Source: Cladophialophora immunda (taxonomy: Eukaryota; Ascomycota; Eurotiomycetes; Chaetothyriales; Herpotrichiellaceae). Taken from it: 64,000 nt of DNA. The position numbers were made by a program, and so were the translations under genes. Positions within the stretch are counted from its first letter, which is position 1. Every line of letters begins with the position of its first letter. The notes below the pieces were generated by a model. That model ran no database searches. It was not told the origin of the DNA and worked only from the letters and a program-made list of their open reading frames with translations. Below, one piece after another: positions 17,386-46,224 of this stretch. The stretch covers positions 3,674,777 to 3,738,776 of the forward strand of contig NW_015622545.1 in NCBI RefSeq assembly GCF_000835495.1, given 5' to 3'.

Positions 17386-18051
17386 ATGCAACAACCATTG
17401 TGGGCATCGTCGGAAATATACATATTCGCTCACCTTTGGTGTTTTGGGGGCTTGTCATCCGGAACCAAAACTTTACATGTTATACTCACTCATATTCGCC
17501 TTTGGTCAATTTACCGGGTCGTCGGCAAAGTGGAAATCGGCGCATACCAGGCGGTTCGATTTACTCCGTTACTCGGCAATAGAAGAAAAGGCTATATATG
17601 TACATACACAATGCACGAAATTTGAGCAGGTCGTATCCTGATTTCGTCTATCTTGCTAGAAGTAGACCTTGTACGGCGCAAACGTCAAATTGGAGAGCTG
17701 GAGTGAGTCCTTTCAAAGCATACCTGTAAGTCTACTTGTTTTGCCATGTGGCTTTCCAGCGAGGCTCAGCAGGCCAAGGGAGTGTTTCAACGAGGCTGAA
17801 GCCCCGATGGCAAAAGGCCCCCACACAACGTCCACCATCGCATCACTGCGGAGTTGTGCATTTTGTTTCCCCACCAGAAATTTATTTTTCGTGTGCTTCT
17901 CACCGCAACAGACTGCGCTGCAACATGCACCGCCCTTGATTGAGTTCCATTCTCGTGCCCTTTGGCACCTTAGACGAGGTACAGACAACGACTCAGGAAC
18001 AAATCCATTTCCCGTTTTATCTACGTTTTCCCTCACCACAAAGTCGCAACC
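17386..18051. other. Intergenic region upstream of BUD23
   Basis: A tandem arrangement containing the permease 3' UTR and the BUD23 promoter. No other feature was recognised. Confidence 0.5.
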
Positions 18052-18876
18052 ATGTCTCGCCCCGAAGATCTCCTCCCTCCGGACCTGTACTACAACGACA
18101 CGGCGTCGGCGAAATACACGACGTCGTCGCGGATCCAGTCGATCCAGGCCTCGATGACCCATCGCGCGTTGGAGCTCCTCGACCTCGATTCCCCATCGTT
18201 CATCCTCGACGTCGGCTGCGGGTCGGGTCTCTCGGGCGAAATCCTGTCGGAGGAAGGGCACCTGTGGGTGGGCATGGACATATCGCCGAGCATGCTGGAC
18301 ATCGCGCTGCAGCGGGAGGACGTGGAGGGGGACCTGTTCCTGGCGGACATGGGCCAGGGCGTGCCGTTTCGCGCGGGGGCGTTCGACGCCGCCATCAGCA
18401 TCTCGGCGGTGCAGTGGCTGTGCAACGCCGAGTCGAGCGGCGTGTCGCCCGAGGGCCGGCTGCGGCGGTTCTTCGACGGCCTGTACGCGGCGCTGCGGCG
18501 CGGCGCGCGCGCCGTCCTGCAGTTCTACCCCAAGAACGACGCCCAGCGCGCCATGGTCGCCCAGGCCGCCGTGCGCGCCGGGTTCGGCGCGGGCATCCTC
18601 GAGGACGACGGCGGCACCAAGAACGTCAAGACCTACCTCGTCCTCAGCGTCGGGGGCGGCGACATCACAGACCGCGTCCGGAACATGGACAACGTCGACA
18701 TCGAGGACGGCAGGAGGGTCAGGGAGGCCAAGATGACGGCGCACAAGGGCGGCGGCAAGGAGGTCAAGGGCGGCAAGGCCTGGGTCATGAAGAAGAAGGA
18801 GAAGATGAGGAATAAAGGCAAAGTGGTCAAGACGGACTCGAAATATACCGCCCGCAAAAGAGGGCCCAAGTTTTGA
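18052..18876 (+). CDS. BUD23: 18S rRNA (guanine-N7) methyltransferase Bud23
   Basis: A 274-residue, single-exon protein, nearly identical in length to yeast Bud23 (275). It begins MSRPEDLLPPDLYYND, characteristic of the family. The SAM-binding motif LDVGCGSGLSGEIL is at about 51-64, followed by GMDISPSML, DMGQGVPFR and ISISAVQWLCNA. The C-terminal third is basic (GGGKEVKGG, MKKKEKMRNKGK, TARKRGPKF) and fits nucleolar localisation and the family's C-terminal domain. The enzyme methylates a guanine of the small-subunit rRNA (G1575 in yeast) together with Trm112 and is required for 40S maturation. The middle of the gene is extremely GC-rich, producing long spurious frames on both strands. Confidence 0.96.
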   Translation: MSRPEDLLPPDLYYNDTASAKYTTSSRIQSIQASMTHRALELLDLDSPSFILDVGCGSGLSGEILSEEGHLWVGMDISPSMLDIALQREDVEGDLFLADMGQGVPFRAGAFDAAISISAVQWLCNAESSGVSPEGRLRRFFDGLYAALRRGARAVLQFYPKNDAQRAMVAQAAVRAGFGAGILEDDGGTKNVKTYLVLSVGGGDITDRVRNMDNVDIEDGRRVREAKMTAHKGGGKEVKGGKAWVMKKKEKMRNKGKVVKTDSKYTARKRGPKF

Positions 18877-19758
18877 AACCCGTTCATCAGACTACCACCA
18901 CCACCCCTACTACTATTTTCGTGGGCCCTCCACGGACGACAGAACGAACCGGCCGGGCTTGACATGAGAGTCAACGACTGACGAAACTCCCGCCTTACGA
19001 GCTACGAATTTTATGCCCTCGACCGACGCTACATTTGAGAGACCATGGACGACCCACGCCCGGAGCCTGTGCTGAGAAAACACAGGGCCAACTCTCGTGC
19101 ATGTACCTGTGCCGAGCGCGAGTAAGTGCCTAGAGGCGATTGATGGTGCCGTGCACAACGACCTGCTCGTCCCGGCGACCAATCGAATACAAGTACGAGA
19201 CTGGCGCATTCGGTTTCCTGATCTACGAGGACGACCACCGACGCCAGGCCGAATGCGACTGCTCATCGAAAGAAGGAGACCGAAGGCCACTCTCCCGTGC
19301 GAGACAAAAGCTGTGCTCGCCATCCTCTGTGATGGGTAGGGCGCAGTTTTGATGTGGAGGAGACTGTGCAACGGAAACCATGATATCTTCGGCGAATGAA
19401 CAGAGATCCAGGAGATCAGAATAAAAGAAAGAGAGTGCGTGAGGGATTGCGATTCCAACATCACAAAGCCGAAAAATTGATCATTCGGTTATTCCAAACG
19501 CCTTCTATTCTATGGTTGCTTTTTCCAAAACCCCACCTCCAAAATGCTCCTGTCCATTGAGACCCTACCGTGAAGACCACCACTGCACGCACAGCCTTGT
19601 TTTCATGCAACCACAACCAGATTTTGGTACAGCGCCCCCGAAAATCAATATGCGAAGCGACCAATGACAATCGCCAGACCGACCCTATCCAACCACACCA
19701 ATGATGCAAACGAGCTTCCACATCAAGGCACGATGATTGATTCCTCTCACAGTCCACC
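18877..19758. other. Convergent intergenic region
   Basis: This separates the 3' ends of BUD23 and the GH47 mannosidase. No coding potential or RNA gene was recognised. Confidence 0.6.
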
Positions 19759-22008: not shown

Positions 22009-23027
22009 TGGGGGGTGAATCGGACCGGCCGAGTTGGTTCATGTAGGTTGGAGATGAGGTATGGAGGTGACAAAGTGGGTGATAGAGGCTATCGAGTGGA
22101 ATGAAGCGCTCAAAAATACATTATAATGACCCAAGAAGACTAACACACGGTCTATTGTACAAGTTGCACAGGTGTCAGGTGGCTTGTTTGAAGGCGGCGA
22201 AGCAACTCAGAAAGTCTCCTTGGAAAGCCTTGGCTCCCCAATGTTTACGCCCAGCTGCTGGTTATACCTACAACACTAATATATCAACGACCCATTGCCA
22301 AATCCATTCATTCTTGAGAGATTACACAAATACACGCACTGAGAAGTGGATTCTTTGGTTCGAGTCGATCTCGCTTCGATCTCCATCTGATGGAGGTTCC
22401 TCTCACCTCGCAGGACCATCGCCGATGCGCCATTACGCCCCTCGAAAGGCATTCCTAATGGAAACGTCCGCCAACCCTTCGATGTCTTTGGCCTATCGAC
22501 TCGCAGTCCAAAAGCACTTGAGCATTACACAAAGAGCGAGTCTTACCCTCGAAGGCATTGCATGCTATTTCATTGCATCTGAGCCGCTGTGAGATACCGG
22601 TGACAATGGCCACGGGTCAGAGCGTCTTCCCGCCATCTGCTGCCACGGAAGCATTTTACCGGGTTGTTTCTCGCCTTCTTCATCGAGCCTAGGTAGGGTT
22701 TCATCTGCCCGGGAGGCATGAACCGGCGCCGCCTCTGATAAGGAGGGACAAAAGTACGCATGGGCTCGACAAAGAGATTGGTTAACATGTTCAGTTCAAC
22801 ACGCCATCAAAGCCGGGGTGCGTAGGCGATCTACTACCTAAATGCTTGAATCGACTCCAACCCTTGCCCATTGCCATCAGGCAGCATATTTGTGAGAACT
22901 ATGACGGTCATCCTCAGAATCTTCCCGGAGAGACACTTTCTTTTTCGCGGACTTGTTTCTCTCCCATTCTTGCTGTAATGTCATTCAGCAGCTATCCCAC
23001 GTTGCCTGACAAAGTGAGGTGCGACGT
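22009..23027. other. Divergent promoter region
   Basis: A shared upstream region of the GH47 gene (minus) and the ABC transporter (plus). A reading frame at 22101-22592 lacks family features and is not accepted as a gene. Confidence 0.5.
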
Positions 23028-26000
23028 ATGACAATGGCACACTGTGAACCTGATGCAGACAACACATTTGGCCCAGTGGTAGCCTCTTGTGCTCGATCCT
23101 TCGACTTTACCCTCCTCTTCGAACAAAGCGTTCTCTCCCTTGTTCCCAATGCTGTCTTCCTGCTCTTTGCAGCCTCACGCCTATGGGTTCTGCTTCACGT
23201 ACCAACCCGCACCACCAAGCATGGCTGGACCTCGATTGCCAAAGTCATAGCCGCTTGCATCTTGGTCGTCATTCAGCTGGTGCTTCTACTGCTTTACACC
23301 GCCGCAACGTCCGTCAACAAGGCGACATCCCTTTCAGCGACGGTGGTGGCGATGTGTGTGGCTATATTCGTTGCTCCTCTGTCGTACCTCGAGCATCATC
23401 GTTCTGTTCGACCTTCGACCCTCCTCAACTCCTATCTAGCCCTCTCAATTATTCTTGACATCCCTCAAGGTCGGACACTATACCTTTTACAAGGTCAGGG
23501 TGAACTTGCAGGGATATTTTCCGCAGCGATGGCCGTCAAAGCTGTCATGCTCCTACTTGAGGCATGGAGCAAGAGAAGCTTTCTCGAAATGCAGTACCAA
23601 GCTCTGCCCGTGGAAACTACCAGCAGTATCCTGAGCCGCGGGCTGTTTGTATGGATGAACGACTTGTTCATTTCAGGATTTAGGAAGGTGATATCTTTCG
23701 AAGACCTCGGTGCAATCGATACCAAGCTCGACTCTGCGACCATTCATCGGCGAATACATGACGAGTGGTCAAAGCAAGACTGCCAAGCTAAATGGCCTCT
23801 CCTCCGGTCGCTATGGAGAGCGCTTCGGTGGTCTATCTTGTCAACAATACCTGCAAGGCTCTGCTACAGTGGATTTGTCTTCGCTCAGCCCTTTCTCATT
23901 CGTCGAGCCACTGGTTACCTAGCTCAACCACGCTCAGCAAATGACATCGGTTACGGTCTCGTGGCAGCTACCGGTTGTATCTACGCGGGAATAGCGGTAC
24001 AGGGCCTGAACCTGGTGTTATAATGGATGCTGATCCGGGTTTGTCTAGATCTCGACCGCTCTCTACAAGCACCAGTTGTACCGGCATATTACATTGGCCA
24101 GAGGTGCTCTCGTCGCGCTTATCTACTCTGAGACGCTCTCCATGGAGCAGGCCCTTGACGATCCTTCGGCTGTCTTGACGTTGATGAGCACCGACGTAGA
24201 CCGGATCTGCCAGAGTTTAGTTGTGCTTCCCGACCTCTGGTCTCGTCCCCTGGAACTGGTTGTTGGCACTACTCTGCTAGCATTACAGATCGGTTGGGTG
24301 TCTGCTATGCCGCTAATTGTTGTTCTCCTTAGCATCACCGCCGATTCTAGGGTCACCATGATGATCGGCGGAAAAGTCAAGATATGGAATGATGCGGTCC
24401 AACAAAGAATCTCGTTGACGGCTGATGTTCTGGGCTCTTTGAAGCTCATCAAAACTCTAGGACTCACCGGACCCATACATTCGATGCTGCAAAACGAAAG
24501 ACTGCGCGAATTGCGCTTCCAGGCGAAGTTCCGTCACGCGACTGTTTGGCTGAATACCTTGGGTAGATGCACCTTTGCTTAGGTCCATTGGAGATATGTC
24601 TGACGACGACTGAACAGGAAACGTACCGCCTGCTCTCGCTGCAGCCGTGACATTCATTGCATATGCAATCAAGGCCAGAATTGAGGGTTCTGCCTCACTG
24701 AACGCCTCTGACGCCTTCACGAGCCTTGCTCTTATCTCTTTGGTCACAACCCCTGCAGCCGAGATTCTGACAGCGTACCCAGCTGCAGCCTCATGCATTG
24801 GCTGTCTAAGCAGGATCGAGACACACCTACTGAAATCACAAGTTCGGACTCCGAGTCGGGATGTCGCTGAGCTTGGTGCTTTGCCGCAAAGGCCAAACTC
24901 TGGTGATCCGTGTATGTCTCATTCCGACGTCAAAATGCTCGGCGGCTCTCGTGACATTCTTCGAAATGTGGACTCGATTCTGCACCCCGGAAGCATCACG
25001 TTCATCCTTGGGCCTGCTGGCTCAGGTAAATCCACATTTTTGAAAGCTGTGATGAGTGAGATTAGTCACTCGGCGTCCATACGGTCTACAGGGGAGGTCG
25101 TCTACTGTGAACAAACCCCATGGCTCTTTACGGGCACTGTGCGGGAAAATATTTGCGGCACCAAGGCTGAAACTTTCGACGAGGGCTGGTATCAGACTGT
25201 CCTTGCTGCATGTGCTCTCCACGACGAAGTGCTCTCACTGCCACAGGGCGATCTGACACACATTGGTGGACAAGCTACCGATCTAAATGGAGGCCAGAAA
25301 CAGCGTATCGTGCTCGCCCGCGCTCTGTACCGGCGACCTCGCCTGATCGTTCTTGACAACTTACTCAGTGCTTCGAGCCTTCAGACACAACGAATGGTTA
25401 TGAAGGGTTTACTGGGCCGAGATGGACTGCTACGAAAACTCCGTGCGACTGGAGTTATTGTAGCCCAAACTGCGCGTTACGCAGAGATTGCGGACAACTT
25501 GATAATGATTGACAGTGAAAGAAATGTCACTTTGGTTCAGAAAAGAGCCAGACTGGAAGATCGCATTTTCGAGACCGATCCGAATGAATCCGAATGCACC
25601 ACAGAGCCGAAAACAATAGGCACTGTCGAGGAAAAGGACAAAATCATTGAAGTCGCCCCCGAGCCCACAACGGGAGAGAAACATGGCCGCAATGACAGTG
25701 ACTTCTCAGACTACGCTTATTATTTCAAGAGCATGAGTTGGATATGGGTGGTTTTGTTCTTCCTGTCCGCCGCCGCACAGACCCTTTGCTATTACATGTC
25801 CCAAGTCATCTTGCAGTGGTGGACCGCAGACGGTGGCCTAGACATTGCGAAATGGACGCCGCTCTATTTCACCCTGGCTTGTGGCAATGCCGTATTCTTT
25901 GGTATTACTACCTGGGCAATGTTCCTCAAGCTGGTGCCGGAATCTGCGGCAAACTTACATCACATCCTCCTCGACACTGTGACGAACGCGACATACTTGT

Positions 26001-27508
26001 TTCTAGCAAAGGCCGATGTCGGCGTATTGCTCAACAGATTCAGTCAGGATATGACTCTGATCGAATCCCAACTACCCACTGGGGTCCTCTGCACGACGAT
26101 CTATCTTTTCTGGACATTCGGATCCTTGGCGCTGATATGCAACGGATCAAGATGGATGGCCCTGACCATTCCAGCGGTCCTGCTCGCGCTGTTCTTCATT
26201 CAGTGGATCTACCTCCGAACATCTCGTCGACTTCGGGTTATTGAGCTTGAACTCAGAAGCCCGCTGTATTCCCACTTCCTCGAAACAATGAAAGGACTCA
26301 GCAGCATCCGAAGCCTCCACTGGGAGCAACAGTTTACAGACTCCATGATCAAGAAGCTCGACGACTCGCAAATTCCTTATTACCTGCTCTACTGCGCACA
26401 AAGGTGGCTCCAACTTGTTCTGGACTTGGTCATTGCCGCACTGGCGTTGATCGTGATGACCTTGGCCGTCAGCCTACGGACGTCCACCAATCCAGGTTCT
26501 CTAGGTCTTTCTCTTAACAATATCCTGAGCTTCAATGACATATTGTCCTTTTTGCTCCAGTACTGGACACTGTTGGAGATCTCGCTAGGGTCGATAGCAC
26601 GAATTCGAGAGTTTGGAACTGACACAGCGCAAGAGATGACCCCTTTAACCAGCACTCAGATCCCCCCTACTTGGCCGAGTCATGGCAGTATCGAGCTCTG
26701 TAACATCACTGCGAGTTACAGCGCAGCCAAGGACGCCCTCAAAAACCTCACAATGTCAATTCGGCCAGGTGAAAAGGTAGGGATTTGCGGCCACCCTGGG
26801 AGTGGCAAGACCTCCCTTCTCCTTGCAACCTCGAGACTGCTGGATGTATCACAAGGCTCGATCATCATCGACGGTGTCGATCTCAACACCATCCCTCACG
26901 CGGTGATCCGAGAACGTATCATCACCGTCCCCAAAGACTCCTTTCTTGTCCAGCAGAGATCTATGCGATTCAATGTGGATCCCAGCGGCGAGTATGACGA
27001 TATTCAAATCATCTCTGCACTCGCCAAGGTTTTGCTGTGGCCGACGCTCGAAAAGAAAGGCGGCCTCGACGCGATCGTCACCTCCGAGTTCCTATCCCAG
27101 GGCGAGAAGCAACTATTCAGTCTAGCGCGGGCCATTCTCCGCAAAAGCCGACACGACCTCCGCAGCAACAGTCCCGGCGGCGCCGAGACCGATACGAAAA
27201 GTCCAGAGAAACAGAAACACCCCGAATCAAAAGGCGTGCTCCTCCTCGACGAGGATATGAGCCAGCTGGACCCGGCCAGAGAGAAAGCTGTGTGGGGGGT
27301 GATCAGGGACGAGTTTGCAGGGCACACCATCTTGGCCGTCGCGGGACCTCACCAGCGGCTCGACTCGGTTTTGGACAGTGATCGCGTCGCTGTCATGGAG
27401 GACGGGAGGCTGGTCGAGTTTGATGCCCCCGGTGTCCTTCTCGCAAGGGGTGATTCGGCGCTTCAGACGTTGTATGAGACGGGCGCGAGGGAGGAGCTGT
27501 GGGGTTAG
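23028..27508 (+). CDS. ABCC-type (MRP-like) full ABC transporter, three exons
   Basis: Model: 23028-23996, 24049-24562 and 24618-27508, giving 1457 residues. Two short introns (52 and 55 nt) remove the stops that would otherwise break the frame; they join GIA to ISTALYKHQLYR and TLG to NVPPALAAAV, as in relatives. Architecture is TMD0-like N terminus, TMD1, NBD1, TMD2, NBD2. NBD1 has Walker A GPAGSGKS (about 627), signature LNGGQKQR and Walker B LIVLDNLLSASS. In the latter, the usual D-D/E and SALD residues are altered. NBD2 has Walker A GHPGSGKTS (about 1220), signature FLSQGEKQ and Walker B VLLLDED, with the catalytic Glu intact. It is a membrane exporter of unknown substrate. The fungal cluster of such proteins often lies in secondary metabolism or drug efflux, but no cluster is seen here. 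Confidence 0.92.
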
Positions 27509-29964: not shown

Positions 29965-32900
29965 ATGAACGGGTGTTCGTCCTTCGATCCACCGTTTCAG
30001 GCCTTGGGCGACGATCCAGCCGCGCACGATGCGGTTTCGGCCAGTGATGATAGTTCAGAGGATGAACTGCCCGACCACGAGCACGACTTCGTTGACGATG
30101 AAGAGGAGCTCCGCCCATGCGTACAGACCACGAGCCTGACAACGCGGTATGTCCGATCGTGGAAAGGCCAGGAGGCCTTCCGGGAGCTATATCAAAACTG
30201 GTAACTCGTCCATGACTCCGATTCTGTTCGCCATTTGTTGACACGTTCTGCCAGGAAGGATGCCATAATCGCATCGTTTAATCTTGATCCAAGGTCCTTC
30301 CGGCCCGTTCTCAGAGAAACCCGCGCACAGATTCAAATCACCATCCACAGACGTTCCGGAGAAGATGGGGACCGACAGTCCCGGGAGCTTCTCGGATTCA
30401 TCCGCTTCATCCGCAAGGCTGGGACCGTCGAACTGGTCAACTTTCAGGCAGAGCTGAAGCGCAACAATCTGGTGATGGACAATTCGAATAAAGAAGGCCA
30501 CGGCGAGTTTGCGGGGTGCCACGGTGAGGGTTTCAAACTGGCCGCTGTGGTGCTGCGCAGGATGGGACATTCCGTCCGATTCGCAGCCTGCGAGTACTAT
30601 TGGAGCTTTGGACTGCATGGACGCTCCCGCACGAAACTCTTCTGTCGGCTCACAGCAGCCAAACCTGAGACGACGGAGAAAAAGAAGATAAAGTGCGCCC
30701 TTCAGAGTGCCAAACCGAATTTCAAAAGGGGCCTGACGTCGAATATCTGGGAGGACGTGTCCGTGAGGATCGGCAGGGCCAAGGGGGGCTTCGGGCTCAA
30801 AGTCTCAGAAGAGGACTTCCGTTCGTGGTTGACGGTCTCGATCGATCTCACTTCGCCCTCGCCCTCGCCCGGCGACGTTGTCCAGACCCGGTCCGGCGAT
30901 CTGATCCTTGACGGACGCTTCGCCAGGCACATCTATCGCAAAGGGTTGCGGATCGCCGGACATTATACTGATTATGTGCTGGGATACAACTTTGCACATG
31001 GTTCCATCGGCCGGGATCGGATTCGTCTGGAAGAGCCATCGGAAGAGCTCCAGATTGTTGGCGATATTTGGGAACAAGCCCTTCTGGGGCAAAGACCGGA
31101 TGTGATCGACATCTACATCAGACTGCTGCGGGAACAAGAGGGATGTCCTGAGGCTGCTATGACGAGTGACAAACTGCCAGAGTCGATGGCACGCTTGATC
31201 TGGGAGCGGTTGAGGAACATGGACCCCGATGCTTTCTTTTATTGCGAGGGTGATCCTTGTCGACCTCAGACTCCGGACGAGGTAAGATACTCCTATCCAC
31301 CACAGAGAAAACACCTAGACCTAATGTTGAAGCGGGAAAGATCGCCCTGATCTCAACTGAGTTCCAGAAGAGACCCGTGGCAATCTCGCGTGCCTTATGG
31401 AGCCTGCTAAGAAAGTTTTCGCTTGTTCGCACCCCTCGCGAAGAACGCTTCTATTTATTCCTCGGGTCGAAAGAGCTAGGGCGCGATGAGAGTGATCCTT
31501 TCAGCACCAACGTTGTCCGATCCTTGTTGGCCTCATTGACTTTACATCCACAGCTGCGCAAAATGAAACTTGAGTTCGTTGACGGTGGGGGCACGGATGT
31601 CGAGGTAGCGTGCAACAAACAGAAGACCCATATTCTCGTTCACCGCAAATGTCTCAGCTTTCAGAAGGTCCACGAAAACGGCCTGTGTGAGGGTCTGCGT
31701 TCAATAGGTCGCGGACACATTGGCGGCGAGGCATTCTTCTGCGACCATGTCGCCGTGGACCTGTTCGAAGCTTTCCTGTGCTTAGCGGGCAGCGCCATAG
31801 GAATTGCTCCCCAAGACATCAGGCCCCTGCGGCGCACCATGCGTGAACAGCTCGGGCTCATGCCTCGGCTGGTCCGTGTCGCTCGTACGGATAAGGCGAA
31901 CGAGCTCGAGGTCCGCTGGATCGGCAACGAATGTGGACTTGTGTCGACGGTCTGCAGCAGCAATGTCTGCTACCAGGTCATCCTCCACCGGGCTAGCTCG
32001 TGTCTGGAGAGGCAAAATGATGTGATCCATGTCCATCGGCGCGGTGTGTGATAGTATACATCGGGTTGCATACTCGGACTGATGCTCATGCGTGACTAGG
32101 AGTCCCTGTGTCCAGCGGTGCCCCCTCGGAGGATGGGCCGCCCTTTCGCGCAGAAGCCTCGATCGACTGCGATTGCGCCTTTCAAATCGTTCCTCGGGGT
32201 CGGTTGAAAGCGATATTCACCGGGTTAGATCCCCGTGAATTTTATTTTCCGATGGTCGCGCGAGTGGAAAACGGCTCCTTCTTTGCGGAGCCTCCAGCAC
32301 CCGTGGCACCTCGCAGGTTTCTCACTCGACCTTTGCCACCTCCAGGCGACGCAGAGGGCCCTCGCGTTGCGGCTAGCGAGGTCGACGAGGACGACGGGGC
32401 CGAGGGAAATCAGGACAGGTATGTGACCAATCCGAAGCTTGAAGGAACGGACGAGAAAGCTTCAGAGAGCAATAACCAAGTCACCGACGCCATCCCCGGG
32501 CCATCAGGTAAGAAGACACGGAGGCCACTTCAGTGGAAAGACGTCGAGCTTTTTGGAGAGGATATCATTGGTCTGCCAGCATTCGGAAAAGACGAGGAGG
32601 AGTGGCGGCGGTGGCATGCTGAAGAGTTGCCAAGTGCCTTTTTTAAACTCCTGGCACGTCGAGAAAAGCATCAGACCGTACGTTGAACCCTTCTGTAGCC
32701 GTAGGCCGCACGATGGACTGACATCGACTTGCAACAGCCGACCTTTCACCCCGTGGCCAGCCTTGAGTGCGCCCACTTGGAGTTTCACTTTGTCAAAGGT
32801 GAATATGCCCTCATCCGCCTGGGCGGTGACAGTGCTTCGGAGCATATCATCTTCATCCACGACATTTCCTACTGCGAAGAGGAACATGAAGCAGCCACAG

Positions 32901-34582
32901 CATATTTACTGGTCACCAAGTATTCGAAACTTGTGTCGCTTTATTCCAGTCTCCAGACGCCCGGTTTGGACAACGATGGTGTGAGCGCAAATAGTCTCGA
33001 GCTGTTGCTTCATTTCGAAGAGTTCGACAAAATGGGCATGCGAGATGATGCCGAGCTCATTCAGCTGGACGATATTGTCCATGCGGCTGATTTGATGGGC
33101 TGCTCTAACAATGCTCTAGGCGGCGTGGAGCACGTCCTTCAGCCGCCTCCAGGTAACGAAGAGGTCTTCCAGACGTGGCATCGATCAAGAAGGGCTGACC
33201 GTATGCTTCGTGTCCAGGCTCGGGGGATGGTTCCATGTTTTGCCGTTTTGCGATCCGAGGGGCCACGTCGAACGATCAGATAGCATGTTTGACACCCGTG
33301 GCCTCTCACCTGCTGCAGCGCCGTGATCGCTGGCCGGCACCACAGTTCGTCAATGCTTCGAGGCCATCCGTCGTGGATTTCACGCCCGGCATCCTGGGCC
33401 CCGCGGAAGGGTTTTCGCAAGCTGGGCTCGAAATCCAAGCTGCGCTGGGTTTTGACCAGGAGCGCCACTTGTCATGGAAGGTATGGATGACCCAGCTCTG
33501 AGGCCTTGAATCCGCTTGTTGATCTATCCAGATACGACACACGAAGAGCCAAGTGTATGATGGTCCACCGAAGAAAGTCCTCAGCGACATCTACTCTGAG
33601 CAACTTCGCCCTCCGTCGACGCCAGACCCTGCACCGCCAAATATTGCGCTGATTGCCGGGAGAAGCGCACCTTTTCGTCTGAACGAAGCAAATAACAGGA
33701 TGCCGTCGGCAGAGCATTTTGTCTCTTTGCTTGACCTTGTCGATGCGGCCGTGGAAACCCCGGGAAAGCCGGACTTTTTGGTGATGCTGAGTTCGCCGGC
33801 AATGCTCCACGCATCATTCGTGCCGCGGTTTTTGGCGACCATAATCAACCTGCTCAAGCACCGACGGTCCGTCCATATAAGGCTCTGTCGTCTTCAAGAG
33901 CACGGGCTTCCGCAAGAACGAAGCATCCTCCTCGTGGTAGCTTCTCCATTCTGTGCGCCACTCCCCTGGTATCTGCATTGGCCCTCTTTACCCAGAAAAG
34001 AACAGCCCATCACGCTCCGTGATCTGATAGTTGACCTTGACTTTGACAACCCTCGCCTTGGATCCGGATCAAAGCGGGCATTTGTCTGTTCGCCTCCTCT
34101 CGACGCAGCACACCCAGATCAACGCCGTGGCCCGTGTCTAGATCATGTCTACAATCACCAGACGGGGCAGCATCCACCGCCATCCTGCAGAATTCCCCTG
34201 CACTGGGACACTGATGCCGTGGTAACGCTGTCCAGCGTGCTGCAACCTTGGACACATCCCAGTAAGTGACCCGAGTAGAAGCTTCTCCAACTCTTTCGCC
34301 TGGCATTGTATCTGCGAACTAACCATGGGTCTCACAGGACGCCAAGATCTTCTCACTGTGCGGGAACTAGCTCGACTCCAGGGCTTCCCCGATGATTTTG
34401 TCTTTTATCATTCCACAGTGAGGCAATATCGGGACGTATGGACCGCCTTACCTCCGATAATTAGCCAGCTTGTCGGAAAGACCATTCTTCATGTCATTCA
34501 GGGCTCGCTCAGGGCCAAAGTAGGCACTCGCTTGGAAGGCCAACGGGCAGCGAAAAGATCTAGACAAGATTGTGGAGAATAA
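29965..34582 (+). CDS. GHKL ATPase-like / BAH-like / C5 DNA-methyltransferase-like fusion, eight exons, catalytic motifs lost
   Basis: Model: 29965-30200, 30255-31281, 31341-32043, 32100-32677, 32738-33152, 33218-33480, 33532-34261 and 34338-34582, giving 1398 residues. All seven introns are 51-76 nt with agreeing phases. After an acidic N terminus comes a GHKL N-box, ELYQNWKDAI (E74, N78, D81), and a glycine-rich ATP-lid motif GCHGEGFK (about 166-173) followed by LAAVVLRRMGHSVR. A BAH-like domain lies about 850-1000 (YALIRLGGDSASEHI, FIHDISYCEEE, IVHAADLMG, FCRFAIR). The C-terminal part has a C5-methyltransferase fold. The motif I equivalent is VVDFTPGILGPAEGF; motif VIII is EHGLPQERSILLV; motifs IX/X are LTVRELARLQGFPDDF and ALPPIISQLVGKTI. 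The motif IV position reads AGRSAPF instead of GPPCQ (Ala about 1120 for the nucleophilic Cys). Motif VI reads LVMLSSPAML, without ENV. It is probably a nuclear chromatin or DNA-binding pseudo-enzyme. The function is inferred, not shown. Confidence 0.85.
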
Positions 34583-35408: not shown

Positions 35409-38400
35409 CTATGACTCGCGGAAGAAATCTTCTCGCACAATATGGCTCTTGTCGCACATGCCCCGGAAGATGCCACCTGCTTCGAATAGATTGATGGGAG
35501 TATCCAATTCCGCAATCCTTCCTTGGTCCATCACGCAGATGCGGTCGTAGTTGATGATGGTCTTCAGGCGGTGAGCAATACACAAGACCGTCTTGCCGGC
35601 AAAGCCCGTCCGCATGGTCCGCTGGATCTTCTCGTCGGTCTCAAAGTCGACCGAGGAGGTCGCCTCGTCACAGACGATAATCTGTGAGTTGCGCACCAGT
35701 GCTCTAGCCAAGGCCATCAGTTGCCGCTGGCCCAGTGAATAGTTCAAGCCTTCTTCATCTACGGGACTGTCGAGGTGGATCCGGCTGGCCCCGCCTGGCG
35801 CGTTGACGTTCGACGTGGATGTCGCCGCAGTCTGTGCGGTATCGGGACGATCGACCTTTTCTGCTGTCACCATTTCATCTCCAACGAGATCTGCTTTGCG
35901 CAGTGCTGCCCAGAGTTCCAGATCTGAATGCTCGTTGAAGGGGTCAAGGTTCGATCGGATAGTGCCTCGGAACAGGGTCGGGTCCTGCGGGATGATGGCT
36001 AGACGTGACCGCAGATCGTATAGACCAACGGTTGAAATGTCAACGTCGTCAATCTTGATCTGTCCCGACGTGAGTTCTGTCAATCGGAAAAGCGCCGACA
36101 TGATCGACGACTTGCCAGCTCCAGTACGACCAACAATGCCGATTCTCTCTCCACCTCGGATTTGGAAATCCAGGCCGTGAAGAACGAGCGGTAGCCCCGG
36201 TCGATACCTCATTTCAACTTTGTTGAACGTGATGGCTCCCGTTTGAGGCCAGTGGTCGGGCACTTCGGCACCTTTCAGTGGCGCTTCCTCCTCTAACTGA
36301 GTGCCATAGAAGTGCAGCCGCTCTGTTGCGTTCATGTTGTTTTCCACTTCGGCCAGTTGCCGAACGGTAAACTGGATCATCTGTACAATGGCCAAAACAT
36401 AGGACAAAACCAAACCCGCTATGCTAGGATTAACATTAAAACGATCTGTCACCACCAAGATGCCAGTAACAAAGACAAGTACATTTCCAATGGCGTCTAG
36501 CCGGGTAGACAACCATCGTTGGTTTGCAAATGTCAGGTAATATGCAGAGTTCATCCCGTCAATGGCGTCCCGCAAGCGTGTCGTGAAATAATTTTGCAGC
36601 CCGTACGCTCGAATAGATGCAACTCCTGAAATAGACTCCGAAAATCGTGCAAAGACTGTAGAACGGAGAACCGCTTCGTGTCGTTTGATTTCCCGTGCTG
36701 ATGCTCTGTAATAACTCGACGCGAACAAGAACAGGATGAATAGGGGGCCCAAAGCCACAGCGAAATAGTGAAAGTAGGCAATGATCAGGGCGAAGACAGA
36801 CGTGATCATGGCCAAGGTGAGGAAATACATCCTCATGGCATCGGTCAAACTGTTGTCCATCGAATCCACATCTTTTGAAAATCGATTGGTAATCCGGCCG
36901 AGAGGAGTAGTGTCGAAGAAGGACATGGGGGCGCGTAAGACTCGGGTCATGGCTCTTTGCAGCATGACCCTACTAGCGTTGGTGCCGCTCGTGGAAAGAA
37001 GAGTTGAGAACGTGAACATGAGCAACGCTTGCGACAGTCCCAGACATGCATATGCAGCAATGTATACCCCTTCGGAAAATCCGAACTTGTCGCTCGTCCA
37101 CCAACTGAGCCACAAGCTGGTCACGATGTTGGCTCCTTGGGATAAGATAAGGGAGATGAATATGAGCGGCCAGAGTATCGGGGATCCTGATGCACGAATG
37201 TAAGCTCCCCAGACGGTCCAGCTGACCGACTTGACGGCACGCTCTTCTTGTTGCATCAGGCCCGCAGGTTTGCTCTTCTTGGGTTTCTTTCCGGGCTTTT
37301 GCTCGTTGGCTTCTCCATCCTTGGCTTTTGCCAGCGCACTCTCGTCCTCTTGAGCCGTGGTGGCCATTAATTTCTGGAAATCGACACTGGTGGTCATCAA
37401 GTTCTCAAAGGTGTCGATGGCTTGAATATGACCGTCTTCCATCCAGATGATCCGGTCACACCGGGAAAGAACATGAAGTTGATGAGTCGCCAGGATTCTG
37501 CATTTGTCCTTCATCAGACCACAGATTGCCTTGTCCATGATGTGGCGGCCAACGTGGGCGTCCACGGCAGAGAGCGGATCATCCATTAAGACGATGTCCG
37601 CGTCAAAGTAGATTGCCCGCGCAATGTTCAACCTCTGCTTCTGACCGCCTGAGAGAGTGATGCCTCGCTCACCGATCTCTGTCTGATCTCCTGCGGGGAG
37701 GATTTCCAGGTCGGGTTTCAAGGCGCACGCATCGATGACATCCCTGTACCATTTGGACTTGTACGGCTTACCGAAAAGAATATTATCCTTCAAGGTGGCA
37801 TTCTGGATCCAAGCATATTGCGGACAAAACGCACGAGTAGATGCCATCTTGAGTTTGCCATCTGTTTTGCGCATATCTCCTGCCAGAGCGGCGAGAAGTG
37901 AGGTCTTACCAGAGCCGACCGTTCCAATGACAGCGATCAATTCATTTCGGCCCACCGTGAAGTCCATGTCGTGCAGTTTGAAGGGTTCCACCTCCGTAGT
38001 CTCGCTTGCAATGTCTTCGTTGGATGCGCCAGGGGATTTCTTGTTCTTCTTCGCTGCTTTCTCGGCCTTCTTTTGAGCCTTCTTTCGTTCCTTCTCGGCT
38101 TTTTTGGCGGCCATGAGCTCACCTCTCGTCTGGAATGTGGCAGCCCGCTCCATATCTTGATTAGCAGTCCGTTCCCAAGTGAAGGAAGCATGTTGCACTT
38201 CAACCGCTGGCTCCATGTCCTCATCCCAGATGATCTCGTCTTGCTGTTCCTCGGATAGTAGAAATTCTTGGATACGTTGGATAGCCGTTTGGGCATCGGT
38301 AACTTGTCCAAGAACCAGAGGTAGCAAGTTGAGTGGCATCCGTAGGGAGTTGAAGAGGGCCAAGGACGAAAAGATCCGCGAGGGAGCAAGACCGTGGTCA

Positions 38401-39875
38401 GAAAGTGAATATGTAATGAAGGCAAGCATTGCTGCGAACACTGGCATTGACATGGCGACCGCGTTGATGGCATTTCGGATTGACAGCAAGACCTGGACAG
38501 CCCTGATCTCTCTCTTGCGGAGTTCCTTCAGCCGGTCCAGAAAGCTCGTCTCCCATCCAAAGAATTTGACAAATCGCACGGAGCCCAGGATTTCCTGTGT
38601 CAGACCCACACGCTGATCTGTAACTTTGTTGATCTTTTTCCTCCTTGCTAGGAGAGACTTGATAGCCTTGGTCAGGATGGGAAGCACAATAACCAGTAAT
38701 GCGTAGCCGGCCAAAGCACTATATCCAATATTGATACAGAGCACGACCAGAACGACGATGATCTGAATGGGCGACGTCCACATGATATGGAACAAGCCGG
38801 AGGCTTGATCAATACGATAAGTATCAACACTCATCAAGTTGACAATCCTGCCATTGTTCCAGCCGACGCCGTCTCCAGCAATCCCGGCGCCTTTGTCAGG
38901 GGTAACTTTTGGGCCACCCTTGGGAGTAAGTCGCTTGGACAAGACGCGGGCAAGAGTCGATCTAGCCTCGTGCTTCTCGTCTTCTGCCTGTACTACCGTC
39001 TCCGACTCTCCTTCAGCTTTGATCTCCTTCCCGCCGGCTTTTGCCCTTCCGGAGATGACCAAGGATTTCTCAAAAATGGCGTTAATCAGCACCGCTCTGC
39101 ACTCTCCTCCAACCATCATGCCACGGTAAATGAAATGATTGGTCGCCATGGACTGACACATTTGCATGAATGTGATACCAATGACCAGGCCTATGCCGTG
39201 ACCAATGCTGGGAGATTTGCCACCGGTCTTGTCTGCGATCCAGGCATCTGTAGCAAACTGAATCAGGTAGCGAGTGGTGAAGGGGGAAAAGACCTGGAAC
39301 AGGGCAGAGAACAATGCACACATGGCCCCAAGCAGGAATTCGCCTCGAAAGGTGTCGAAAAGAGCGAACATCAGAGGGTTGCGCTCCCCTCGAGCAACAC
39401 GACGTTTGAAAGACGCCGACAGCTTGTCCCTCATGGTTGTGGCGCTTCTGTCAGGGTTGACAAGCCAAATGTCGTTCAACTCGATGGGCCGCTTGTAGCC
39501 CGTGGTCATGAGAGGATTCATCCATTGGAACAGGAGGAGACTGAGGAAGCTCGCGTTGTATTCTCGACATACCGTCCTCTCTTCCGGTATAGGAGGAGGG
39601 TGCCGGCGGAGCGGATTTATTCTGTAACGCCATGGTACTTTCTCTGGCTTGGTCTGTACATAGGCAGGAGTGCTGGCTTCAGTCGCTTCGGTCACGGTCG
39701 ACTCGACCTTTTCCAAACGTGCACTGTCTTGGCTCCTGCCTCGCCCTTCTCTTCTCGTGTCTCTGGGGACTTCTAGATATTGTACTCTCTCGTCTCTCTT
39801 TTCCAGATCCTGCTCCTCAACGTCGTTCCGCGAGAGGGCGCGCTCGAGGTCTCCCTCGTCGTCAGTATGCGCCAT
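35409..39875 (-). CDS. Yor1-like ABCC multidrug/oligomycin-resistance type ABC transporter
   Basis: A 1488-residue protein in one exon. The N-terminal 100 residues are charged and cytosolic. They are followed by the Yor1-type sequence PPIPEERTVCREY, FLSLLLFQWMNPLMTTGYKRP and LNDIWLVNPDRS. TMD1 precedes NBD1 (Walker A GTVGSGKTS about 650, signature LSGGQKQR, Walker B IVLMDDPLSAVD). TMD2 precedes NBD2 (Walker A GRTGAGKSS about 1249, signature YSLGQRQ, Walker B IIVCDEATSSVD, H-loop IAHRL). A Lys-rich linker (EKERKKAQKKAEKAAKKNKK) sits just before NBD1. All ATP-site motifs are intact apart from the usual ABCC NBD1 Asp. It is expected at the plasma membrane as an exporter of drugs or organic anions. 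It differs from the 23-27 kb transporter in having no introns and no TMD0. Confidence 0.95.
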   Translation of the reverse strand: MAHTDDEGDLERALSRNDVEEQDLEKRDERVQYLEVPRDTRREGRGRSQDSARLEKVESTVTEATEASTPAYVQTKPEKVPWRYRINPLRRHPPPIPEERTVCREYNASFLSLLLFQWMNPLMTTGYKRPIELNDIWLVNPDRSATTMRDKLSASFKRRVARGERNPLMFALFDTFRGEFLLGAMCALFSALFQVFSPFTTRYLIQFATDAWIADKTGGKSPSIGHGIGLVIGITFMQMCQSMATNHFIYRGMMVGGECRAVLINAIFEKSLVISGRAKAGGKEIKAEGESETVVQAEDEKHEARSTLARVLSKRLTPKGGPKVTPDKGAGIAGDGVGWNNGRIVNLMSVDTYRIDQASGLFHIMWTSPIQIIVVLVVLCINIGYSALAGYALLVIVLPILTKAIKSLLARRKKINKVTDQRVGLTQEILGSVRFVKFFGWETSFLDRLKELRKREIRAVQVLLSIRNAINAVAMSMPVFAAMLAFITYSLSDHGLAPSRIFSSLALFNSLRMPLNLLPLVLGQVTDAQTAIQRIQEFLLSEEQQDEIIWDEDMEPAVEVQHASFTWERTANQDMERAATFQTRGELMAAKKAEKERKKAQKKAEKAAKKNKKSPGASNEDIASETTEVEPFKLHDMDFTVGRNELIAVIGTVGSGKTSLLAALAGDMRKTDGKLKMASTRAFCPQYAWIQNATLKDNILFGKPYKSKWYRDVIDACALKPDLEILPAGDQTEIGERGITLSGGQKQRLNIARAIYFDADIVLMDDPLSAVDAHVGRHIMDKAICGLMKDKCRILATHQLHVLSRCDRIIWMEDGHIQAIDTFENLMTTSVDFQKLMATTAQEDESALAKAKDGEANEQKPGKKPKKSKPAGLMQQEERAVKSVSWTVWGAYIRASGSPILWPLIFISLILSQGANIVTSLWLSWWTSDKFGFSEGVYIAAYACLGLSQALLMFTFSTLLSTSGTNASRVMLQRAMTRVLRAPMSFFDTTPLGRITNRFSKDVDSMDNSLTDAMRMYFLTLAMITSVFALIIAYFHYFAVALGPLFILFLFASSYYRASAREIKRHEAVLRSTVFARFSESISGVASIRAYGLQNYFTTRLRDAIDGMNSAYYLTFANQRWLSTRLDAIGNVLVFVTGILVVTDRFNVNPSIAGLVLSYVLAIVQMIQFTVRQLAEVENNMNATERLHFYGTQLEEEAPLKGAEVPDHWPQTGAITFNKVEMRYRPGLPLVLHGLDFQIRGGERIGIVGRTGAGKSSIMSALFRLTELTSGQIKIDDVDISTVGLYDLRSRLAIIPQDPTLFRGTIRSNLDPFNEHSDLELWAALRKADLVGDEMVTAEKVDRPDTAQTAATSTSNVNAPGGASRIHLDSPVDEEGLNYSLGQRQLMALARALVRNSQIIVCDEATSSVDFETDEKIQRTMRTGFAGKTVLCIAHRLKTIINYDRICVMDQGRIAELDTPINLFEAGGIFRGMCDKSHIVREDFFRES

Positions 39876-42039
39876 GGCGATCGGTTCCGCTCTAGAGGAC
39901 AGCCAACAACGAGTGAAGGGGGATGGAATCTTGCGAACAGTCCATGACGGAGTGACTGTCCACGCGGGGAGGGGCAGCTAATATGTAGTATCACATCCGA
40001 AGAATCGGTGACGGGAGGAATGAGAGCCGGGAAGTTGATGACTGGGAGGGGGACCAGGATCAGGCGCAAAACATCCTCGGTGTTGTCGTAATGAAAGTCG
40101 AGCAGACCTTTACGGAAAAGCGGCCACAAGCGAGAGGGAAGGTGTTGAATGGGCGGAGACGTTCCTCAGTGCTGGAGCTAATGGGAGGTAGAGGAGCTGA
40201 CCGGGCAGGCTTCTCATGATGCAGAGGGTGGACACAAGAACCGGGACTTCGAGCCCTGTCGATTGGGCGGCTTTTGGCTTGCATTCTTTCGAGGCTAGCT
40301 GGACGGCGCACCTTTTGAACCACGGCCTAGGTGGGTGGGTGTTGAAAATCTGGACAATCCCCAATTGGCGCACGCGAGGCGAAGCTTGTATCTGCCCGTT
40401 TGCCCCAACAGAGTCAAGTGGGACGATACTGGCGATGCCGGTGATGCTGCTACTGGAGCTTAGCAATCCAAACGCCCTGAGCGGGCAATTTCAGATCCCC
40501 GCAAAATTCAATTTTCCTTTGCAGTAAATGAATCATCGTTCATTCTGTGATGATTGCGATGGCAATATTGACGGCTCCCACCGATTGTGGAATGTGGGCG
40601 GTGGAGCGGGCGTCGAAAAAGTGGATGTCCCATTTTTTGCCATCCGCAGGCGCAGGCAGCAAGTGAAAAACAATCATGGCAAACCGTCCATTATTCATCC
40701 TCGCATGATCTCACCACCATGTGTTACCAGCACTCATTATCGCACCCCGGTACCTGGCTGCCCGAATCCCCCAACCGCCTCGAGGCTGGCTCAAAACTCT
40801 CCACGTTCGCCGGAGTCGAGTGCTGTGCAACTGCTCAACCACGTTCTTGTGTATCCCCAGAGACCGCCACTTCACCTACTGAAAGATTTCCTGGCGCTGT
40901 GCAACAGGCGGCAATCCAGCGGTAACGACAAATCACAAGAACCCGCGGACATTATGCATGACTGCCTGAAGCCCGACCGCTTAACCCCACCAGCCGTCTG
41001 GGACCTTTTTGCCCCGGCAGATGACTCCTCGAACCTCGCTACATATACCCAGCCGGGTAAGACGTGCCGGCAGGAACAAAAACATTGAAAGGGGGTCCTT
41101 GTGGTCTGTCTAATACTCTTATGGGGGACTGCGGTCCTGGCGCCTGTTATCTCGGGGCCGAGATTTTTTCTATATTTTCCGATCGAAAGTGGAGGCAAAC
41201 ATTGTGCGTCTATTCTGCCTTGGGTACCCAGAAGAGGATGATAGCAGACACTCCACCGGCAAATCGGCTCATTTGCTTACGAAATGTCCTTCTGAAGAGG
41301 AGGAAACCAAACTCATAGTGCTATTGTACTTGAGCTCGACGTGGCACTGGTTAAGGGAGCTGTTGCAGAACGACTAATCCTTCGGCATACAGCTCAGGTC
41401 TTACATGTCCTCTTTGTAGATGGGACAGGTAAGTGGAGAGCCCTTCCCTACAAGGTGTTGCTACAAGGACCCCTCCACCTACAACTGCAGATGCTGCTGG
41501 CTCCGCTCAAAAAATAGGGTTGGTCCATCTGGGGTACGCCAGCGGCTATGTACCTAGATACGTGTAAGAGCCTTAGGCATGTAAGCTTCCTCGAGAGCCC
41601 TAATGTTGGCCAAATATGCACTACCTACAGCTTTAGTATCGGACAATTATCCAGTACTCGTCTTTCCAGTCTTAAAGGCGGTCTGGATCAACCTCCGGAA
41701 CCGGTCCGTCGAACAGGAGGCTCCAATAGAGACATGGACCTGAGATACCGGACAAGAATCTGATACAGAGAAGCTAAAACTGGTGCACTATTCTCACTAC
41801 AATCACTTTATGCAGCAAACACGGCCCTGCTTTCGATTCCCTTGTCGTCATGACCCGGCGAGGTGACTGATCGGCGCCGGAGAGGCACAGCGGCCATTGT
41901 CTGCACCGCAAAAGCAGCCGGTTCAGATGCTCGAGTCCTATGCTGAAGATCATCACCTTGGACGAGGCGAATATGCTACCAGGCTCCTTCGAGAACACAT
42001 GTTTGATGACTCGGCGCCGACACTCACCCGCCAGGGCTC
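39876..42039. other. Intergenic region, 2.2 kb
   Basis: The first part is the upstream region of the Yor1-like gene. The rest (about 41.0-42.0 kb) has short stop-broken frames without family resemblance. It might include a decayed element, but nothing could be named. Confidence 0.45.
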
Positions 42040-44690: not shown

Positions 44691-45096
44691 TTCGGCGCGA
44701 GGAAACAGATCTCTGGTTGGGAGCGGACTATCGTGGCTGTTCGGGGGTGCAACTGAGGCCTTCAACGACACACTTTGGTCTGATCAGATAGTGAAATGCT
44801 GTATATATAAATGCAGTGCATGATATTTGATGACTTGGCAATTACCTGTCTCTTCACATTCATACACACAGCACGGAACAGACAACCGAAGCACTTGCAC
44901 AACTGGGATCACCCGTATCTCCATTGGCGGGCATTCCCCTGCCTTATCAACCTGCGGAATGCACTAATCGCATTCGGCCGAACATGTCTCCGTAGTCCAA
45001 TGTGTTGATTAAAAATGCAAACCCATAACAATCGCGCAATTGACCCCAGCTATTGCGATTCTCCTGCTGGCAGGTCTGAGAGCATATACATATACA
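44691..45096. other. Short intergenic region
   Basis: SDH2 3' UTR and promoter of the next + strand gene. A TATATATAAATG is present near 44801 but no clear feature follows it. Confidence 0.5.
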
Positions 45097-46224
45097 ATGG
45101 AGAGCTCGTGCTCGTGTCAAGCTCTCGGCAGCTTACAGCTCTGGATTGATTCCCTAAGACCCTCCACCACCAGTCGGAGGACGCGTTCGGCAGAATGCAT
45201 CCCGACCACGTCGCAGGCAAGACAACAACAGTCACTTGCCGATCGGGCCTTCGATCAGCTACATCCCCTCGATAAGACATCAGCTACAGATCATGATGAG
45301 GAGGAGGAGACGGTCTTGTATCTGGGATATGGGTCCAACCTGAGCGCTGAGACCTTCAAGGGAAAGAGAGGCATACATCCGGTATCGCAGGTCAACGTTC
45401 TCGTACCGAGCCTGTCCTTGACCTTTGATCTACCGGGAATACCATATTCTGAGCCGTGCTTTGGAAATGTACGCTACAGAGAGGTGACGCCCCAGCAAGA
45501 CGGAGGCTGTACGTCTACCAAAGACTACCACAAAGATCGTTGGTCAAAAGGTCTGGTTGGCGTGGTCTACGAAGTGACCAAGTCCGACTTTGTGCACATT
45601 ATCGCTACAGAAGGAGGGGGCGCAGGATATCAAGATGTCCTTGTTGATTGCTACGCCCTCACTGGGGGTCCAATGGAGGATGTCCCACTGATGCCCTCGG
45701 GACAACCTTTCAAAGCACATACCCTGTTTGCACCCTCCAAGACCACTCGACCTGACCCTTCCTACGCACAACCGAGCCCGAGATACCTCAAACTGATCAC
45801 AGACGGCGCCGAAGAGCACGGTTTACCCCTCGAGTATCAAGCCTTCCTCCACCAGATTCGAACATTTCACATCACAACCACAAAGCAGAGATTGGGCTCG
45901 TTCATCTTTCTGAGTGTGTGGTCTCCCCTGTTCTTGTTTTTCGTGGGTGGGGCCGCTGCGATATTTCTGAAACCAGACGGAACCTATCCAAAGTGGTTCG
46001 CCAAGTTCTTGAATGCTATGTTTGCGGCATGTTGGGCGAGCTACGACAACTTCTTCAAGGAGACCTTTGGAGATGGCGAGAGGACCATGAGGGACAAGGA
46101 CGAAGGTCATGAAGGTGATGCTGGTCATGAGTGTTTTGGTTCGGTCATGGACGAGAAAGAGCCATTGATTGAACGGGTCCAACATAAATACGGGGCAGTG
46201 AGCACGGTGGAACGAATTGTATGA
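45097..46224 (+). CDS. Gamma-glutamylcyclotransferase-like (AIG2/GliK-type) protein with C-terminal membrane anchor
   Basis: A 375-residue single-exon protein. The ATG at 45097 is the first in frame. The N-terminal 70 residues are Ser/Gln-rich. The catalytic fold starts at TVLYLGYGSNLSAETF (about 72-87), the hallmark of gamma-glutamylcyclotransferases. It continues with LPGIPYSEPCFGNVR, LVGVVYEVTKSDF and the ATEGGGAGYQ segment holding the expected catalytic Glu. A hydrophobic segment (about 285-310, FIFLSVWSPLFLFFVGG) is predicted to span a membrane. The tail is acidic. The family releases 5-oxoproline from gamma-glutamyl substrates; fungal relatives include GliK of gliotoxin biosynthesis. 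No such cluster is visible here, so the substrate is open. Confidence 0.85.
   Translation: MESSCSCQALGSLQLWIDSLRPSTTSRRTRSAECIPTTSQARQQQSLADRAFDQLHPLDKTSATDHDEEEETVLYLGYGSNLSAETFKGKRGIHPVSQVNVLVPSLSLTFDLPGIPYSEPCFGNVRYREVTPQQDGGCTSTKDYHKDRWSKGLVGVVYEVTKSDFVHIIATEGGGAGYQDVLVDCYALTGGPMEDVPLMPSGQPFKAHTLFAPSKTTRPDPSYAQPSPRYLKLITDGAEEHGLPLEYQAFLHQIRTFHITTTKQRLGSFIFLSVWSPLFLFFVGGAAAIFLKPDGTYPKWFAKFLNAMFAACWASYDNFFKETFGDGERTMRDKDEGHEGDAGHECFGSVMDEKEPLIERVQHKYGAVSTVERIV

Follow-up and report, generated by a model that had tools for sequence, protein, structure and literature searches.

A protein that joins an ATPase module to a DNA methyltransferase fold raises the question whether it methylates DNA at all and, if not, what its two parts do together. 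The gene analysed here lies in a stretch of 64,000 nucleotides (the window) of the 42.2 Mb assembly of Cladophialophora immunda (Eurotiomycetes, Chaetothyriales; GCF_000835495.1, contig NW_015622545.1, positions 3,674,777 to 3,738,776 of the forward strand). An initial annotation, made from the letters alone, had proposed that the product combines a GHKL/MORC-type ATPase, a BAH-like domain and a C5-methyltransferase (methylase) fold. Our analysis revealed that these parts are fused in one protein, that the family is widely conserved among fungi, that nucleotide-site residues and an arginine of the ATPase module are kept, and that the catalytic residues of the methylase are lost in the members examined. 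With moderate confidence we favour a nuclear, nucleotide-gated clamp, in which the dead methylase would serve as a reader of DNA or chromatin or as a regulatory partner.

Gene model and domain architecture

Splicing of eight exons, separated by seven introns of 51-76 bases each, gives an uninterrupted product of 1398 amino acids followed by a stop codon. The product is identical to the public C. immunda protein CLAIMM_10624 (100% identity, 100% of the query covered), and a Fonsecaea multimorphosa protein is 68% identical to it over the full length. A wrong splice model or a pseudogene was rejected on account of the open eight-exon product, the identical public model, an intron shared with a paralogue and the largely matching trees of the two protein parts (see below).

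The profile searches suggested by the initial annotation recovered only part of the architecture. In the window product Pfam found PF00145 alone (residues 1315-1368, E 5e-7), and neither HATPase nor BAH was detected there or in 42 relatives scanned singly. The folds were recognised in predicted structures of two relatives, P0018 (from Zopfia; approximately 40% identical to the window product; AlphaFold2 predicted local distance difference test score, pLDDT, 81.8) and P0017 (from Talaromyces; approximately 35% identical; pLDDT 82.4), and the GHKL-S5 module was placed on the window protein by alignment. The structure of P0018 contains a GHKL+S5 fold, which matches Hsp90, TRAP1 and topoisomerases II and VI, and in that of P0017 a BAH domain is followed by a C5-methylase fold, with matches to DNMT1, DIM2, HaeIII and HhaI. 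Chance motif matches were rejected, since both folds are predicted with good pLDDT scores in relatives and have counterparts among solved structures, and the proposed combination of GHKL module, BAH domain and C5-methylase fold in one protein holds. Between the ATPase module and the BAH/methylase part there is probably an FN3-like domain (Foldseek matches to FN3 with probability 1.00 and a target-normalised TM-score of 0.6-0.7 for most single-domain chains).

Catalytic residues of the methylase fold

The C5-methylase fold is present with motifs VIII to X. Residues were counted in an alignment (A5) of 26 proteins picked for methylase sequence, from which P0004 was omitted owing to its broken C-terminal model; the rows of P0004 also lack both catalytic residues. 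At the aligned place of the motif IV cysteine none of the 26 members has Cys, the residue being A, T, S, V, Q, G, K, P or E, and none of 25 has the motif VI glutamate. The canonical Phe of motif I is replaced in 25/25 members by Ser, Thr or Ala; one of the glycines is kept in 6/25, the next in 0/26, where all members have Leu or Val. Motifs I, VIII and IX/X had been reported by the initial annotation: the fold with motifs VIII to X was recovered, motif I does not have the canonical FxGxG form, and the absence of motifs IV and VI had gone unremarked, as had the replacement of the G1-box Asp and glycines in the ATPase module. Because the motif IV Cys and the motif VI Glu are gone and the S-adenosylmethionine (SAM) loop of motif I is rewritten, the methylase, judged from its sequence, looks catalytically dead in the members examined. 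Two other genes of the same genome served as controls: SPPCQPF and EEA occur in one methylase gene, whose DNMT5-like counterpart has SSC, IENV and an SNF2 domain.

The position equivalent to the motif IV Cys was placed with the help of a predicted beta-strand, which terminates immediately ahead of it. The HMMER alignment to M.HaeIII is uncertain at this motif, as it pairs PPC with PPK instead of with the loop that follows the strand. The loss in the window protein is independent of the placement, because residues 1011-1192 contain no cysteine, whereas the result for the relatives does depend on it. A Cys is found one residue past the motif IV site in 5/26 members, and P0017 carries one inside an insertion at that place. 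Proteins P0008, P0010, P0011, P0014 and P0043, which belong to one Fonsecaea/Cladophialophora paralogue group, read CFRL or CFRLD there, with the Cys one residue late; the second C. immunda copy (translated pieces) likewise has GEHACFRL, and its motif VI is without Glu. The late Cys may be due to chance or may be a remnant. P0002, P0003, P0005, P0008 and others are labelled DNA (cytosine-5-)-methyltransferase in databases despite the absence of the catalytic residues at the aligned places.

Compared with domain windows of equal length, the rewritten motif I stretch is highly conserved (1.8% of windows are as high); for the motif VI stretch the share is 7.3%. The conservation of these two stretches would agree better with selection for a new use than with decay.

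The GHKL-S5 module

The ATPase part was compared in an alignment (A6) of 51 of 83 proteins, 29 short ones and P0012, P0031 and P0039 being omitted. Among relatives with a residue at the site, the N-box has Glu in 46/47, Asn in 47/47 and Asp in 48/48. The lid glycines and lysine and the S5 arginine, Arg332, are invariant; by analogy with Hsp90, Arg332 is a candidate gamma-phosphate arginine. The Bergerat fold with S5 (in P0018), the N-box Glu and Asn and the GxxGxG lid of the GHKL superfamily were thus all found, and the DxGxG box was not. The retention of the N-box, the lid and the arginine speaks for a dimer gated by nucleotide, whereas the Asn at the adenine-binding Asp site speaks for altered or lost nucleotide specificity.

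Of the proposed GHKL/MORC type, the GHKL-S5 fold, N-box and lid stand and strict MORC membership does not. When the S5 stretch was searched for the pattern of the MORC signature, GhXhhpXXRhl as defined by Iyer 2008 (PMC2292703), 0/51 proteins had it, and on this ground MORC membership was rejected. Hsp90 and topoisomerase chains rank first among the structural matches of the N-terminal half. No MORC chain is among the 50 matches listed, a number too small to speak against a structural kinship with MORC.

Distribution and evolution of the family

Relatives were collected in three protein searches, each of which scored only the approximately 7990 candidates with the most shared words. Besides A5 and A6, alignments were made of 25 first-search matches (A1), of 42 proteins (A2) and of 38 of these 42 (A3). 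Every organism name displayed among the matches is fungal, and many metagenome entries are nameless. Relatives of the ATPase part occur in six classes, all of filamentous ascomycetes: Eurotiomycetes, Sordariomycetes, Dothideomycetes, Leotiomycetes, Lecanoromycetes and Geoglossomycetes (one species per class was looked up). The named relatives that bear the methylase part fall, by the class to which their genera are assigned, only in Eurotiomycetes and Sordariomycetes. The same architecture, which the initial annotation had proposed to seek in other fungi, is found in some members of a family in which others lack the methylase part or have other C-termini. Annotated alternatives are the ATPase part alone, an end after the BAH region, and a coiled coil (L020, P0032).

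Another contig of the C. immunda genome holds a second copy, whose pieces show 30-44% identity and whose N-box intron is at the identical place. Trees built separately from the ATPase part and from the methylase part, for 24 of the 26 A5 proteins, agree largely (Mantel r 0.856, as high in 0/2000 permutations; 15 of 21 splits in common). P0022, P0015 and P0017 have long branches in the methylase tree. On the ATPase tree the methylase part is annotated in 26 of 51 relatives, a distribution that needs nine changes (as low in 0/500 shuffles); gain and loss are indistinguishable there, and truncated gene models may inflate the nine changes. By and large the groups in the gene trees follow the classes and do not show wide exchange.

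When bacterial and archaeal genomes were scanned, a single locus came up, L020 (NYXK01000028.1, 5992-9675), filed as a deltaproteobacterial metagenome-assembled genome. Its gene is broken up as if by introns and is followed by a long coiled-coil-like frame; the letters of a nearby frame seem to resemble a fungal HET protein. Because of the intron-like interruptions and the HET-like frame, L020 was read as probable fungal contamination and not as a prokaryotic relative.

Possible function

In the clamp that we favour, the N-terminal GHKL-S5 module would dimerise upon nucleotide binding, as do the Hsp90, MutL, topoisomerase and MORC ATPases. The FN3-like and BAH domains would connect it to the C5 fold, which, without methylating, could read DNA or chromatin or could regulate the active methylases of the genome as their partner. 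An action on nuclear DNA or chromatin is suggested by the BAH domain, by a methylase fold whose motif IX is intact, and by the basic C-terminal tail. We infer nucleotide binding, dimerisation, nuclear location and DNA contact; silencing or genome defence would be plausible roles.

Several observations weigh against the clamp. The G1-box (DxGxG) Asp site is Asn in 48/49 relatives, and the glycines of the box are unconserved (Gly in 5/49 and 2/49); this stretch was equated with the G1-box by its spacing to a conserved Leu and by a predicted strand, with reference to the Hsp90 numbering. In Hsp90 the same Asp to Asn change abolishes ATP binding. With the Asp replaced, the glycines lost and this precedent, the ATPase may be inert or may bind another ligand. 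The window copy alone has Asp at residue 154, where Gly is found in 50/51. The conservation of the motif IV stretch is average (29% of windows are as high). Finally, 25 of the 51 tree relatives are annotated without a methylase part, so this part is either dispensable in some lineages or overlooked by gene models.

The main rival is a DNMT3L-like scaffold with both centres dead, which would bind and steer the active methylases of the cell. The loss of the methylase residues, the replaced GHKL Asp and the two control genes with catalytic Cys and Glu agree with such a role, but the N-box Glu, the Mg-binding Asn, the lid and the S5 arginine, kept in nearly all relatives, would be superfluous in a pure scaffold, and we regard it as rather unlikely. 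If the protein were instead a working cytosine methylase whose catalytic loop has diverged, and which is coupled to the ATPase as in DNMT5, this would explain the full fold with motifs VIII and IX, the database names of several relatives and the Cys residues near motif IV. With no Cys or Glu at the aligned places of any member, the Phe and Gly of motif I lost and the window product cysteine-free around the site, an active enzyme is very unlikely, and this reading was rejected on the missing motifs IV and VI.

A sensor of genome defence or non-self, in which the dead methylase would detect foreign or repeated DNA and the ATPase would signal, appears improbable. The 8 scanned of the 16 other long frames in the window include no defence gene, no signature of repeat-induced point mutation (RIP) was found across 16 tiles of the window at the usual thresholds, and the grouping of the gene trees by class speaks against wide exchange. 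In favour of a sensor are the patchy methylase part, the shifting C-termini (methylase, BAH end, coiled coil) and the bacterial GHKL proteins that lie beside cytosine methylases in restriction operons, as described in the available text of Iyer 2008 (PMC2292703). We find it hardly credible that the gene is decaying, or that a wrong gene model has fused two genes. The lone Asp154 and the many relatives annotated shorter, without methylase, would fit, but the eight open exons with their identical public model, the full-length similarity to the F. multimorphosa protein, the methylase sequence behind the ATPase in half of the tree relatives (26/51), the largely matching trees and the N-box intron common to the paralogue do not.

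Beyond the clamp itself, we tentatively suggest that the family could represent an undescribed class of chromatin machine of filamentous ascomycetes. Its GHKL-S5 motor would have a re-engineered pocket (Asn for Asp), and the SAM pocket of its methylase fold would have been rewritten under selection to accept another ligand. A single protein would then read DNA by means of a former methylase and clamp it by means of an ATPase once of the chaperone or topoisomerase type. A methylase that is apparently dead yet conserved would mean that DNA reading has been separated from methylation. The database labels are probably erroneous, and surveys that rely on them could overcount fungal methylases. The family also offers an experimentally approachable protein for studying the cooperation of a GHKL motor with a methylase fold.

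Position of the features and neighbouring genes

The features are collected in Table 1. Two frames of ATP-binding cassette (ABC) transporters flank the gene, at 23010-27505 (+ strand; with a TMD0 domain) and at 35412-39977 (- strand). Three other open frames had no Pfam match at E 1e-5: one of 1160 residues at 47510-50989 (+), and two of 392 and 403 residues at 17716-18891 (-) and 45013-46221 (+), respectively.

Table 1. Features of the gene, in window positions
Feature	Position	Strand	Basis and remarks
Whole gene	29965..34582	+	8 exons, 1398 aa, CLAIMM_10624
Exons	29965-30200, 30255-31281, 31341-32043, 32100-32677, 32738-33152, 33218-33480, 33532-34261, 34338-34582	+	
GHKL ATPase + S5/transducer module, residues ~56-375	30130..31143	+	AlphaFold2 structure of P0018 against Hsp90/TRAP1/TopoII/TopoVI-B, mapped by alignment; contains intron 30201-30254
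N-box, residues 70-82 (E74, N78, D81)	30172..30264	+	Alignment of relatives; interrupted by intron 1
G1-box equivalent, residues 136-147; Asn141 at the GHKL adenine-binding Asp site	30424..30459	+	Spacing to a conserved Leu, predicted strand
Lid motif GxHGEGFK, residues 165-173	30511..30537	+	G166, G169, G171 and K173 in 51/51
S5 loop with Arg332; GRDR in the window protein, NRDR in most relatives	31000..31026	+	R332 in 51/51
FN3-like beta domain (probable), residues ~596-745	31863..32368	+	Foldseek FN3 matches; position inferred from secondary structure; contains intron 32044-32099
BAH domain, residues ~850-985	32741..33148	+	
Pseudo C5-methyltransferase domain, residues 1036-1375	33364..34510	+	Introns within
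Rewritten motif I, D-x-S/T-P-x-V/I-L-G-x-x-E-G-F	33376..33417	+	Conservation and residue counts
Motif IV position, IALIAGRSAPFRLN in the window protein, no catalytic Cys	33634..33687	+	Aligned relatives
Motif VI position, DFLVMLSSPAML in the window protein, no ENV Glu	33766..33810	+	Aligned relatives
Motif IX, RxDxLTVRELARxQGFPDDF	34255..34396	+	Pfam match and alignments; contains intron 34262-34337
Basic KRxR C-terminal tail, candidate nuclear signal	34538..34579	+	Basic cluster in the last 30 aa, in 33/51 relatives; function inferred

Comparison with known systems

No GHKL-methylase fusion is described in the titles and abstract openings of the literature searched, which did not cover the fungal survey of Bewick 2019. 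A 2026 review (PMC13297926) lists DIM-2, RID, DNMT1-RFD and DNMT5 and singles out DNMT5 for its fusion of ATPase and methylase, a 2021 review (PMC7862722) covers DNMT1/Masc2, Dim-2 and RID/Masc1 as the fungal DNMT1-like proteins, and an Aspergillus survey (PMC9676040) names five families; the available parts of these three texts do not mention a GHKL-methylase family. As the initial annotation had supposed, the protein falls outside the fungal methylase classes named in these portions of the literature.

With MORC and paraMORC proteins the family shares the N-terminal GHKL and S5 parts, the coiled-coil C-terminus of some relatives and a link to cytosine methylation, which in MORC and paraMORC is seen in bacterial operons and in plant silencing. 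It differs from them in lacking the S5 signature in all 51 relatives, in the Asn that replaces the adenine-binding Asp, and in carrying a methylase fold in the same chain. The available text of Iyer 2008 (PMC2292703) reports MORC ATPases as absent from or lost in fungi, and bacterial GHKL proteins as neighbours of cytosine methylases in restriction operons. The best structural matches listed for the N-terminal half are the GHKL-S5 modules of Hsp90 and type II topoisomerases, which have other C-terminal parts, and compared with which the nucleotide-site residues are changed in the window family.

The BAH domain followed by the methylase, as seen in P0017, resembles DIM-2 and DNMT1 in fold and order, whereas the catalytic Cys and Glu are missing, motif I is rewritten, and GHKL-S5 and FN3 parts stand ahead. 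Pfam found no N-terminal RFTS/RFD domain in the window product or its relatives, though Pfam also misses the BAH and GHKL parts here. DNMT3L is an animal protein with other accessory domains, whose methylase fold, devoid of catalytic residues, is kept by selection; the window family has such a fold in common with it, and DNMT3L has no GHKL ATPase. Like DNMT5, the family unites an ATPase and a methylase fold within a single fungal protein, but its GHKL ATPase is N-terminal, whereas the SNF2 ATPase of DNMT5 lies behind the methylase, and its methylase looks dead. Pfam gave no SNF2 hit in the window product, whereas it gave one in the DNMT5-like gene (C6) of the same genome. With this family, GHKL takes its place beside the SNF2 of DNMT5 as an ATPase type that occurs fused to a methylase fold.

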